In this document: piece by piece, positions 1,114 to 4,165 of the stretch | How positions within the stretch are numbered: the first letter of the stretch is position 1 | How the letters are laid out: every line of letters begins with the position of its first letter | DNA from: Solimonas flava DSM 18980 | GTDB taxonomy: Bacteria > Pseudomonadota > Gammaproteobacteria > Nevskiales > Nevskiaceae | DNA length: 64,000 nt | Reading direction: 5' to 3' | Assembly (NCBI RefSeq): GCF_000426685.1 | Contig: NZ_AUFV01000001.1 | Coordinates: 496,001-560,000 of the forward strand | Made by a program: the position numbers and the translations under genes | The notes under the pieces: generated by a model | The model's database searches: none | What the model was told of the DNA's origin: nothing | What the model saw: the letters and a program-made list of their open reading frames with translations, nothing else

Positions 1114-1854
1114 TCAGATGGTGTCCGGGAGCGCGTCCTGGATCGCGCGCGTGCGCGCGTCATCGGCGGCGCCGACCACGGCATAGCCGTAGCCGTCGTG
1201 GAACCACCAGCGCGTCGTCAGCGGCCCGTCGCGGCGCGTGCCGACGCTGGGCTCCGGCTGGCGACGACTCGGCCGCACGTAGAAGCTGATGCGGCGGCCG
1301 TCGGCGGACTCGTAGAAGACCAGCGCCGCCGCGCCTTCCGAGGTCGACAGCAGGCGGCCGCCGAGCAGCGCGAAACCGTAGGTGCCCAGATCCGGCAGTG
1401 CCAGCGGCCGACCGAGCCGGCCGGCGAGCCAGGCCTGCAGATCGGCGCCCTGCCCGGCACGCAGTTCGACCGGCCGCAGACGATCGCTGGCGAACACGCG
1501 GTAGGCCTCGACGGCGTCGGCCATCGGCGCCGGCCGCGCCAGCGCGCCGCGCCCCTGCCAGCCGCCGAGCACGCCGAGCCCGACCGCCAGCAGCCAGGAC
1601 GCACACAGCAAGGCCAGCCGCTGCCGGCGGCGACGCAGGCCGCGGCGAATCACGGCCGGATCGAGCTGCGGCGCAGCCGGCCGCGTGGCGCGGCGCAGCG
1701 CTTCGCCGAGCTGGCGTGCATCTTCGCGCCAGGCGGCGACGCGCGCCGCCAGCGCCGGCTGCGCAGCGAGGCGCGCCTCGAGATCGGCGCACCGCCGGGC
1801 GTCGAGGCGACCGTCGACATAGGCCTGCAGTTCGGTGTCGTCGATGTCGTTCAT
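1114..1854 (-). CDS. Anti-sigma factor, single-pass membrane protein
   Basis: A 246-residue protein partnered with the ECF sigma gene. The stop and start codons of the pair overlap as ATGA (1851-1854), so translation is likely coupled. The N-terminal ~60 residues (DTELQAYVDGRLDARR...) resemble the cytoplasmic anti-sigma segment of zinc-finger/RskA-like regulators, but the classic H-x3-C-x2-C zinc motif is absent. One hydrophobic segment at about residues 85-105 (LALLCASWLLAVGLGVLGG) would place the remaining ~140 residues in the periplasm. Family knowledge: such proteins hold the sigma factor at the membrane until a signal releases it. The signal here is unknown; the divergent catalase suggests oxidative stress (inference). 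Confidence 0.85.
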   Translation of the reverse strand: MNDIDDTELQAYVDGRLDARRCADLEARLAAQPALAARVAAWREDARQLGEALRRATRPAAPQLDPAVIRRGLRRRRQRLALLCASWLLAVGLGVLGGWQGRGALARPAPMADAVEAYRVFASDRLRPVELRAGQGADLQAWLAGRLGRPLALPDLGTYGFALLGGRLLSTSEGAAALVFYESADGRRISFYVRPSRRQPEPSVGTRRDGPLTTRWWFHDGYGYAVVGAADDARTRAIQDALPDTI

Positions 1855-2360
1855 TTGACTCTCCGCAGCGCGGGCCGCAGCGGCCCGCCGTCCATCAGCT
1901 CGCGATAGCGCTGCCGTGCGCGTGACAGACGCGACATCACCGTGCCGATCGGCACGCCGAGCGCGTCGGCCGCTTCCTGGTAGGCGAGCCCCTCGACCGC
2001 GACCATCAGCAGCAGCGCGCGCTGCTCGGCCGGCAAGCGGCCGAGCGCGGCGAGCGCATCCTGCGCCAGCACCGTGTCCTCGGCCGATGGCGCCAGCGCG
2101 CCGGGCTCGTCGCCGACGTAGGGCTCGAACACGCGCCGCCAGCGCCGGCTGCGGCGCTGCGCATCGACGAACTGCCGGTAGAGAATCGAGAACAGCCAGG
2201 CGCGCAGTTCGCCGTCGGGCCGTCGCGTCCGCCAGCGCGACAGCGCGCGTTCCAGGCAGGCCTGCACCAGGTCGTCAGCGTCGCCGGCATCGCGCGCCAG
2301 GCCGAGCGCGAAACGTCGCAGCGCCGGCAGCAGTTCCCGCAATTCATCGTCGTCGATCAT
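1851..2360 (-). CDS. ECF-family RNA polymerase sigma factor
   Basis: About 169 residues with the two-domain ECF architecture: region 2 at about residues 10-75 (DADDLVQACLERALSRW, then AWLFSILYRQFVDAQRR) and region 4 at about 110-160 (LPAEQRALLLMVAVEGLAY..AADALGVPIGTVMSRLSRAR). An upstream in-frame ATG at 2390 would add ten residues (MRRIGCGPWA). I prefer 2360 because the homologous region begins there; neither start has a strong ribosome binding site. The anti-sigma gene overlaps its 3' end. It is divergent from the catalase operon, and the shared intergenic region carries matching ECF-type promoter elements on both strands, so autoregulation plus control of catalase/b561 is the likely circuit. 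Confidence 0.92.
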   Translation of the reverse strand: MIDDDELRELLPALRRFALGLARDAGDADDLVQACLERALSRWRTRRPDGELRAWLFSILYRQFVDAQRRSRRWRRVFEPYVGDEPGALAPSAEDTVLAQDALAALGRLPAEQRALLLMVAVEGLAYQEAADALGVPIGTVMSRLSRARQRYRELMDGGPLRPALRRVK

Positions 2361-2420
2361 CGCCCATGGCCCGCAGCCGATCCGTCGCATGCCGACCCGA
2401 AAACACGGGCCATTGTCGCG

Positions 2421-2448
2421 TAAGACGCGCGACAGCCGGTTTTATTCC
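2421..2448 (-). promoter_or_regulatory. ECF-type promoter for the sigma/anti-sigma operon
   Basis: On the minus strand GGAATAAA (2448-2441) is followed after exactly 13 bases by CGTCTTA (2427-2421). From GGAAT to CGTC this is the 16-base spacing typical of ECF promoters. The likely transcript start near 2415 leaves a short leader before the sigma gene. The element mirrors the plus-strand promoter at 2462-2489. Confidence 0.65.
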
Positions 2449-2469
2449 GTCGCGGGACAACGGAATAAA
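2441..2469. repeat. Perfect 10-bp inverted repeat formed by two divergent -35 elements
   Basis: TTTATTCCGT (2441-2450) and ACGGAATAAA (2460-2469) are exact reverse complements around a 9-bp spacer. Each arm contains the -35-like GGAATAAA of one divergent promoter. It could also be read as an operator palindrome; the matching CGTC elements outside both arms favour the twin-promoter reading. Confidence 0.85.
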
Positions 2470-2489
2470 GGCGCAGCGGCAGCGTCTCA
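2462..2489 (+). promoter_or_regulatory. ECF-type promoter for the catalase/b561 operon
   Basis: GGAATAAA (2462-2469), 13 bases, then CGTCTCA (2483-2489). This has the same consensus and spacing as the opposing minus-strand promoter. The predicted start near 2495 gives a leader of about 22 bases before the catalase ATG at 2517. Confidence 0.65.
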
Positions 2490-2516
2490 CCGACGTATCC
2501 CTTCCGGAAAACCCGC

Positions 2517-3611
2517 ATGCCGACCCCCGAACCCCTGTCCGCCGGTCAGCGCACGCTGCGCCTGACGGCCATCGCCCTGATCGCCGGTGCACTCGCCCTG
2601 GCCTTCGCCGCGAGCGCCGGCTGGCTCACGCCGGCGCGGCTGACGCCCGGCCGCATCGTCGATGCGCTGCAAGGCCACGACGGCCTGCATCCCGGCTTTC
2701 GCCGCGCGCACGCCAAGGGCGTTTGCGTGATCGGCGAGTTCGCCGGCAACGGCGCCGGCGCGGCACTGTCGAAGGCCGCACTGTTCGCCGCCGGCGCGCG
2801 CGTGCCGGTGGTCGGACGCTTCTCGACCGGCGGCGGCATTCCGGATGCGCCGGATGGCCGCGTCGTGTTCCATTCGATGGCGCTCAGTTTCACGCTGCCC
2901 GACGGCAGCCAGTGGCGCACCGGCATGAATCATGTGCCGATCTTCCCGGTCGCCACGCCGCAGGACTTCCTCGCCTTCCAGCTTGCGACGCGTCCCGCCC
3001 CTGCGACAGGCAAGCCCGATCCGGCGCGCGTCGCCGCCTATCTGGCGGCGCATCCCGAAACGCGGGCTTTCATGGCCTGGCTGCGCGAGCACCCGCTGCC
3101 GTCGAGCTTCGCCAACGGCACCTACTACAGCGTCAACGCCTTTCGCTTCATCGACGCCGCCGGTACGGCGCGGACGGTGCGCTGGCGCATGCAGCCGGAA
3201 GCGCCGTTCGCCGAGCTCGACAAGGCGACGCTGGCGCAGCGCGACGCGGATTTCCTGTTCGCCGATCTGGCCACGCGCCTGCGCGCCGGTCCGCTGCGCT
3301 GGCAGCTGATCGTCACGCTTGCCGGGCCCGGCGATGCCGGCAACGACGCGACCCGGCCGTGGCCGGCGGATCGCCGTGAGCTGACGCTCGGCACGCTGAC
3401 GCTCGAGCGCGCGACGCTCGAAGACGACGGACCGTGCCGCGATCTCACCTTCGACCCTCTGATCCTGCCGGCCGGCATCGCCGCGTCCGACGACCCGCTG
3501 CTGGCGGCACGCTCGGCCGCCTACGCCCGTTCCTTCACCCGCCGCGCCGGCGAGCCGGCGCCGCGCAGCGCGCTGGCGCGCGACCCGTCGTTCCGCGAGA
3601 CCGTCCGATGA
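2517..3611 (+). CDS. Catalase-family peroxidase with N-terminal hydrophobic anchor (SrpA-like)
   Basis: A 364-residue short catalase-fold heme protein. Residues ~13-37 are a hydrophobic stretch (LTAIALIAGALALAFAAS) suggesting export or a membrane anchor. The distal histidine lies in AHAKGVCVIGEF (about residue 65), the distal asparagine in TGMNHVPIF (about 140), and the proximal tyrosine fits RxxxY in RSAAY near the C-terminus. It is shorter than true catalases (~480 or more) and matches the catalase-related peroxidase group, which can reduce peroxides with an electron donor. The cytochrome b561 gene overlaps its stop codon, and an ECF-type promoter sits upstream. The likely job is envelope peroxide detoxification (inference). 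Confidence 0.88.
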   Translation: MPTPEPLSAGQRTLRLTAIALIAGALALAFAASAGWLTPARLTPGRIVDALQGHDGLHPGFRRAHAKGVCVIGEFAGNGAGAALSKAALFAAGARVPVVGRFSTGGGIPDAPDGRVVFHSMALSFTLPDGSQWRTGMNHVPIFPVATPQDFLAFQLATRPAPATGKPDPARVAAYLAAHPETRAFMAWLREHPLPSSFANGTYYSVNAFRFIDAAGTARTVRWRMQPEAPFAELDKATLAQRDADFLFADLATRLRAGPLRWQLIVTLAGPGDAGNDATRPWPADRRELTLGTLTLERATLEDDGPCRDLTFDPLILPAGIAASDDPLLAARSAAYARSFTRRAGEPAPRSALARDPSFRETVR

Positions 3612-4165
3612 ATGCCCGCCCCGCTTCGTTCCACCCGTACGCGCGCCTGCTGCACTGGAGCATGGCGATCCTGATCGTGGCGATGCTGTTCGTCGGCGTC
3701 GGCATGGCGTCGACCGTCAGCCCGCTGCGCCAGACGCTGCTGGCGCTGCACCGGCCGCTCGGCCTCGCCCTGCTCGTGCTCGTCGCGCTGCGTCTGGCGG
3801 TGCGCCTGCGGCATCGGCCGCCGCCGCTGCCGGCCGCGCTGCCGGCCTGGCAGCGCCACGCCGCCGGCGCTTCGCACGGCCTGCTGTATGGCCTGATGTT
3901 CGCGCTGCCGCTGGTCGGCTGGGCGATGCTCTCGGCCGGCGACTATCCGCTGACGCTGGCACCGGGCCTGACGCTGCCGCCGATCGTGCCGCGCGACGCC
4001 GCGCTCTACGCGCTGCGGCGGCGGGCGCACACGGCGCTCGCGCTGCTGCTGTTCGGCACCGTGCTGCTGCATCTGGCTGCCGCGCTGCAGCACGCCTGGC
4101 TGCGCCGCGACGGCGTGATGGCGAGCATGGCGCCGTGGCGCCGCCGCCCGGGTCAGTCCGGATAG
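3608..4165 (+). CDS. Cytochrome b561 family membrane protein
   Basis: A 185-residue, four-helix membrane cytochrome. The start ATG at 3608 overlaps the catalase stop (ATGA), which fixes the start and implies coupling. Candidate heme-ligand histidines sit in HPYARLLHWSM (helix 1), LLALHRPLG (helix 2), ASHGLLYGLM (helix 3) and AHTALALLLFGTVLLHLAAA (helix 4), the usual b561 pattern. Family knowledge: these proteins move electrons from quinol, superoxide or ascorbate across the inner membrane. Paired with a catalase-like peroxidase it could supply the reductant. The 3' end overlaps the convergent VOC gene by 13 bases. Confidence 0.92.
   Translation: MNARPASFHPYARLLHWSMAILIVAMLFVGVGMASTVSPLRQTLLALHRPLGLALLVLVALRLAVRLRHRPPPLPAALPAWQRHAAGASHGLLYGLMFALPLVGWAMLSAGDYPLTLAPGLTLPPIVPRDAALYALRRRAHTALALLLFGTVLLHLAAALQHAWLRRDGVMASMAPWRRRPGQSG

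Follow-up and report, generated by a model that had tools for sequence, protein, structure and literature searches.

Back-to-back ECF-type promoters between a sigma/anti-sigma operon and a divergent catalase/b561 operon, very probably read by the neighbouring sigma factor

Overall arrangement of the locus

The window, that is, the whole 64,000-nucleotide stretch of Solimonas flava DSM 18980 DNA analysed here, contains two closely similar promoter elements placed back to back between a sigma/anti-sigma operon and a catalase/b561 operon, and sequence comparison indicates that the neighbouring ECF sigma factor very probably reads both of them, autoregulates and drives the peroxidase/b561 operon. 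This reading is supported by the conservation of both promoters with the divergent catalase, by the way in which the promoter follows the catalase gene to other positions, and by the published co-induction of the Burkholderia cenocepacia counterparts (PMC2830190; here and below, the cited papers are represented by the available portions of their text). The same proposal, with one sigma factor firing both operons, had been made in a preliminary description of this DNA, and it now has strong comparative support in addition to the B. cenocepacia co-induction. We regard the explanation as a whole, which joins the sigma factor, the anti-sigma factor, the two promoters and the peroxidase/b561 chemistry, as highly likely. 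The features concerned are the following.

1114..1854, minus strand: anti-sigma factor gene; overlaps the sigma gene by 4 nt (ATGA); downstream position conserved
1851..2390, minus strand: ECF sigma factor gene; Pfam Sigma70_r2 and r4_2 above cut-off; 179 aa from the ATG at 2390
2421..2448, minus strand: predicted promoter of the sigma/anti-sigma operon, GGAATAAA-N13-CGTCTTA; exact match, with a counterpart in 59/59 divergent loci (window included)
2441..2469, no strand: inverted repeat made by the two -35 elements (arms 2441-2450 and 2460-2469); spacing varies elsewhere
2462..2489, plus strand: predicted promoter of the catalase/b561 operon, GGAATAAA-N13-CGTCTCA; exact match, 59/59 divergent-catalase loci
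2517..3611, plus strand: catalase-family peroxidase gene; Pfam PF00199; N-terminal hydrophobic stretch at residues 12-38 (hydropathy)
3608..4165, plus strand: cytochrome b561-type membrane protein gene; Pfam PF01292; overlaps the catalase gene by 4 nt (ATGA)

Relatives of the sigma factor, 59-64% identical, are found in Pseudomonas, Burkholderiaceae, Luteimonas and Pseudoxanthomonas; their alignments begin near the ATG at 2360 (169 aa form), and this shorter start is therefore likelier. The anti-sigma factor has a single hydrophobic stretch by hydropathy (residues 78-99 of 246); it had no match in Pfam, and its matches to NCBIfam anti-sigma families were well below cut-off. The peroxidase is probably membrane-anchored and periplasmic. 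Its best solved relative is 3e4w/3e4y (E 1e-47), which we take to be the Mesorhizobium loti catalase-related peroxidase, and no second match to it was found in its own genome at E 1e-5. The b561 protein has several hydrophobic stretches by hydropathy.

We infer the following circuit. The region 2421-2489 would consist of two separate back-to-back promoters, both read by the sigma factor encoded at 1851-2390, which would normally be held by the membrane anti-sigma factor encoded beside its gene and would be freed by an envelope or oxidative signal. Leftward, the freed sigma factor would transcribe the sigma/anti-sigma operon, providing both positive autoregulation and a supply of the brake; rightward, it would transcribe the peroxidase/b561 operon. 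The peroxidase would probably act on the periplasmic side of the inner membrane and would be fed by the b561 protein with electrons from the quinol pool. Such a circuit would give this catalase-family peroxidase/b561 operon a specific likely controller.

The two promoter elements

On the minus strand, GGAATAAA occupies 2448-2441, the N13 spacer 2440-2428 and CGTCTTA 2427-2421, while on the plus strand the corresponding parts are GGAATAAA at 2462-2469, N13 at 2470-2482 and CGTCTCA at 2483-2489. The GGAATAAA-N13-CGTCT core is exact at 2448-2423 (minus) and 2462-2487 (plus), in agreement with the preliminary description, which had the same element and spacing on both strands. The -35 elements also form the perfect inverted repeat that had been recognized there, computed as TTTATTCCGT/ACGGAATAAA with 10 bp arms and a 9 nt loop. 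However, contrary to what had been supposed there, the -35 regions do not overlap: the boxes are separate, with 13 bp between their first Gs (2449-2461), and only the polymerase footprints would overlap. A genome-wide search for the motif, which the preliminary description had recommended, found exact GGAATAAA-N13-CGTCT only at the window's two sites in the whole 4.46 Mb genome. The 14 other genome matches all carry two mismatches, none of them having one, and the reversed control gave 26 matches with up to two mismatches.

Conservation with the divergent catalase

The comparison drew on two sets of loci. The first comprised 62 loci that encode a related sigma factor, 34 with and 28 without a divergent catalase, and was scanned for GGAATAA-N13-15-CGTC within 260 nt upstream; the second came from the Burkholderiaceae, where 31 of 200 genomes matched and gave 30 loci, 22 with and eight without a divergent catalase, and was scanned for GGAATA-N14-17-CGT(C/T/A) within 300 nt. 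Looser GGAAT patterns were excluded: in many loci they also matched within the sigma coding sequence, and in L047 they gave one outward match.

Both promoters were present in all 34 divergent-catalase loci of the first set and in all 22 of the Burkholderiaceae set, as well as in a congener (L080) and on a Gluconobacter plasmid (L162). Together with the window these make 59 pairs, scored as GGAATA-N15/16-CGTC, and both promoters were found in 59 of 59, although many of the loci are related and do not represent independent events. Most belong to Pseudomonas and the Burkholderiaceae, and the others to Luteimonas, Pseudoxanthomonas, the window's genus and Gluconobacter; L162 has no b561 match, and the catalase of L043 is cut by the contig end. 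The GGAATA-to-CGTC spacer is N15 in 116 of the 118 promoters and N16 in two, and the first seven bases and the spacer are identical within the pair at 52/59 loci.

Where there is no divergent catalase, the outward promoter is absent. It was found in 0/28 such loci of the first set, ten of which keep the sigma gene's own promoter with CGTC, and in 0/8 of the Burkholderiaceae set, seven of which keep the sigma gene's own, some with CGTT or CGTA. The combined figure of 0/36 counts at least three loci twice, since L166, L168 and L169 among the eight come from the same genomes as L039, L047 and L053 of the first set; L170 and L171, moreover, look like repeats of L052 and L058.

The promoter also depends on the position of the catalase gene. 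In six of six Pseudomonas genomes with the catalase 3.4-4 kb from the sigma gene, it precedes the distant catalase. On Pantoea and Duffyella plasmids (Erwiniaceae; L094, L095 and L096), the genes form one operon in the order catalase, b561, sigma, anti-sigma, and a single promoter precedes the catalase in all three of these single-operon loci. In two Cupriavidus genomes the sigma gene and the distant catalase gene have promoters with altered -10 elements, CGTTTACC and CGTATACC (judged by eye). The promoter was missing at two Cupriavidus catalases of one genome (L137, 43% identical, and L139, 30%), at a Roseomonas catalase (L138), at a Paraburkholderia locus with a 41% identical sigma gene upstream of the catalase on the same strand (L161), and at a Caballeronia catalase with b561 and no sigma gene nearby (L163). 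Two sigma-bearing genomes (G069 and G072) had no catalase match. Among plasmids, 1003 records matched the sigma factor, and six of the 30 listed were examined, L097 and L098 lying outside the motif scan; for the catalase there were 101 records, and of the three examined L162 has both promoters, while L161 and L163 do not.

A small regulon

Across the 62 loci of the first set, the motif occurred 78 times in the 16,120 nt upstream of the sigma genes, as compared to twice in 482,808 nt elsewhere, where one of the two was a distant catalase promoter; the reversed pattern occurred in neither. Among 15 whole genomes, 20 of the 21 exact GGAATAA-N14-CGTCT matches lay at a sigma or catalase promoter (control, 1), and three of the genomes had no match. 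With the shorter GGAATAA-N14-CGTC, 22 of 29 matches in 13 other genomes were at such promoters (control, 2). Because the motif is nearly confined to the sigma and catalase promoters across loci and genomes, the regulon appears to be small, close to two promoters, and it can be traced across several lineages. A larger regulon in the window's own genome was considered and rejected: the shorter form gave two exact and 29 one-mismatch sites, 31 in total against 30 in the reversed control, so one-mismatch sites are not in excess.

Of the seven remaining matches in the 13 genomes, five lie over long open reading frames or in front of no clear gene, and two, in the Burkholderiaceae loci L224 and L223, precede short lipoprotein-like frames. 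In both of these, the copy is the third of the motif, at 1501-1525 shortly before the frame, and the frames look unrelated; the two copies may mark further regulon members or be chance matches.

The Burkholderia cenocepacia counterpart and the PrtI/PrtR pair of Pseudomonas fluorescens

In B. cenocepacia biofilms, the catalase gene BCAL3477 and the divergent sigma gene BCAL3478 rise together after H2O2, most strongly at 60 min (qPCR at 15, 30 and 60 min: 1.7, 6.5 and 23.1 for BCAL3477; NS, 5.5 and 16.6 for BCAL3478), and NaOCl produces no significant rise in either; the authors remark that the two are similar and think that the catalase is triggered indirectly (PMC2830190). BCAL3478 is EcfB, which is linked to an anti-sigma gene and has been called closely related to PrtI (PMC2194791). 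EcfB resembles the window sigma factor in its linked anti-sigma gene and divergent catalase, the latter and EcfB both being induced late by H2O2 with similar kinetics; the available text of these reports covers co-induction, not promoter or sigma dependence (PMC2830190, PMC2194791). B. cenocepacia belongs to another lineage, and the -35 gap is 25-26 bp in the 22 Burkholderiaceae loci, as compared to 13 bp in the window. The comparison between EcfB and the window was made through the published primers on related loci rather than the J2315 sequence: the ecfB forward primer matches 18/18 bases in 12 of the 22 Burkholderiaceae two-promoter loci, whose sigma factor is ~60% identical to the window's, while the reverse primer has no exact match in the Burkholderiaceae loci, its best having one mismatch of 19.

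The PrtI/PrtR pair of P. fluorescens is likewise, by its description, an ECF sigma factor with a membrane anti-sigma factor (PMC2194791), but its outputs, temperature-dependent protease and GAF production (PMC2194791, PMC2997014), differ from the peroxidase/b561 operon of the window. PrtR has been reported as an activator (PMC2997014); if the window anti-sigma factor were its counterpart, simple sequestration may be the wrong picture.

We place the window in a working group, 'catalase-linked ECF sigma (EcfB/PrtI-like)': its sigma gene is followed by the anti-sigma gene, and the promoter in front of the sigma gene recurs before the peroxidase and b561 operon. This suggests direct targets for EcfB/PrtI-like sigma factors, which are known mainly from indirect phenotypes in the cited literature. 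The shared promoters of this locus were not described in the literature covered on the ECF/catalase/b561 link, which came mainly from open-access journals.

Promoter spacing and possible interference

The -35 boxes of the 59 loci are most often 28 bp apart (28 loci), followed by 25 bp (13), 26 bp (nine) and 44 bp (two), and gaps of 13, 27, 29, 36, 50, 65 and 83 bp were each seen once. The gap is 25-28 bp in 51/59; the 13 bp of the window is the shortest, and a congener has 83 bp. The preliminary description had taken the mirror symmetry as a strong sign that one sigma factor reads both promoters. That conclusion stands, while the mirror image is weak evidence for it: the gap ranges from 13 to 83 bp with both promoters retained, and the mirror image is therefore incidental. 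Two promoters of one kind that face away from each other will look symmetrical, and the symmetry as such does not make an operator.

It could be argued that the back-to-back geometry is itself a regulatory device, in which two holoenzymes cannot bind together and the promoters alternate. The RNA polymerase footprint reaches about -55. A footprint of this extent on the plus-strand promoter would cover 2441-2448, which is the opposite -35, and with only 13 bp between the first Gs of the boxes, the shortest of the 59 gaps, a collision between two holoenzymes is plausible in the window, and much less so at gaps of 28 bp or more. However, the gap is not conserved, with 25-28 bp in most loci and 83 bp in the congener, and the B. 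cenocepacia counterparts rise together, not alternately, in the published excerpts (PMC2830190). We therefore consider such a device rather unlikely. A narrower suggestion, offered tentatively and with considerable doubt, is that in the window the 13 bp compression bars joint occupancy, so that output would be shared between sigma/anti-sigma and peroxidase synthesis. If this were true, the compressed pair would be a built-in brake on autoregulation, missing in relatives with gaps of 25-83 bp. The natural spacing series from 13 to 83 bp is in any case a resource on interference between back-to-back promoters of one sigma factor.

Which sigma factor reads the promoters

The cross-species consensus of ECF26 sigma factors has GGAATA at -35 and GT at -10 (PMC6180224). 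Both window promoters, presumably read by the window sigma factor, fit these elements, and the transmembrane-type stretch of the anti-sigma factor, presumably periplasmic in location, fits the partner trait of the ECF26 sigmas of Sinorhizobium meliloti. The ECF15 group, the EcfG general stress sigma factors, has GGAAC at -35, CGTT at -10 and NepR/PhyR partners. These traits differ from those of the window, where the promoters are GGAATA/CGTC and the partner has a transmembrane stretch. Presumed RpoE6 (ECF26) and RpoE5 (ECF15) frames were picked in unannotated records by their place beside published promoters; the window sigma factor shares 41% identity with the former and 39% with the latter, values that do not by themselves assign it to a group. 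RpoE4 of S. meliloti, sought through its promoter, was not found in 297 genomes.

The S. meliloti ECF26 sigmas RpoE1, RpoE4 and RpoE6 share with the window the GGAATA and GT elements and a downstream anti-sigma gene encoding a transmembrane segment; RpoE6 also lies divergent from its target, SMa0142, and SMc01022, a gene of cytochrome b-like type, increases with RpoE1 and RpoE3 (PMC6180224). By contrast, RpoE4 and RpoE1 act mainly on sulfite oxidation, and the main targets of RpoE6 are a serine protease together with others, with no catalase in the portions of text available (PMC6180224). The circuit is of a known, ECF26-like kind, a well-supported and fairly ordinary regulatory arrangement.

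Identical or similar elements occur in the S. meliloti ECF26 promoters whose starts have been mapped. In the two ECF26 rows with the start marked in the text, transcription begins 10 nt (SMc04049) and 9 nt (SMa0142) downstream of CGTC or CGTT (PMC6180224, Table 1). The ~6 bases from CGTC to the start given in the preliminary description are therefore probably too short, and the predicted starts of the window promoters are ~2414-2415 (minus) and ~2495-2496 (plus).

The S. meliloti ECF26 sigmas also read each other's promoters (PMC3511301, PMC6180224, PMC10880074), so another ECF sigma factor of the window's genome could read these promoters as well. That a different sigma factor, or several, reads them in place of the neighbouring one is nevertheless quite improbable. 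Searching the genome with the window sigma factor gave 49 candidate stretches, among which only the gene itself passed E 1e-25, and other, more distant ECF sigmas may therefore be present. On the other hand, the promoter is found with the sigma gene in Pseudomonas, Burkholderiaceae, Luteimonas, Pseudoxanthomonas, Erwiniaceae and Gluconobacter, and in the two Cupriavidus genomes the -10 elements of the two promoters have changed in step. The neighbouring sigma factor is thus the reader that we favour.

A third explanation, in which TTTATTCCGT-N9-ACGGAATAAA would be the operator of a dimeric regulator and the likeness to promoters secondary, draws on the perfect 10 bp arms with 9 nt between them, but it is very hard to reconcile with the comparative data. 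No single dimer site fits gaps of 13, 25-29, 36, 44, 50, 65 and 83 bp; a CGTC accompanies each arm at a distance that hardly varies; and the separated catalases and the single operons have just one arm, with its CGTC, in front of them. Finally, a chance resemblance can hardly be credited, being already refuted by the comparative counts (59/59) and standing against a window scan with up to two mismatches that returned two matches, both exact, where shuffles averaged 0.19 and 0/100 reached two.

Minor sequence features

No housekeeping promoter was found between 2340 and 2540 by a simple consensus scan. A structured leader RNA on the sigma transcript was considered and rejected (fold z-score -0.38; 67/200 shuffles were as stable). 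Two records labelled Acinetobacter phage MD-2021a, CAKLQH020000001.1 and CAKLQF020000001.1 (328 and 379 kb), carry a 46% identical catalase annotated katA, and could be bacterial contigs under a wrong label.

A second inverted repeat, TTGTCGCG-TAAGA-CGCGCGACAG followed by CCGGTTTTAT, lies at 2413-2435. It overlaps the -10 and the predicted start of the sigma promoter, has a terminator-like score on the plus strand, and may be due to chance or be a further control element. In addition, a 13-nt perfect direct repeat, CGCATGCCGACCC, is present at 2386-2398, at the upstream one of the two sigma ATGs, and at 2514-2526, at the catalase ATG.
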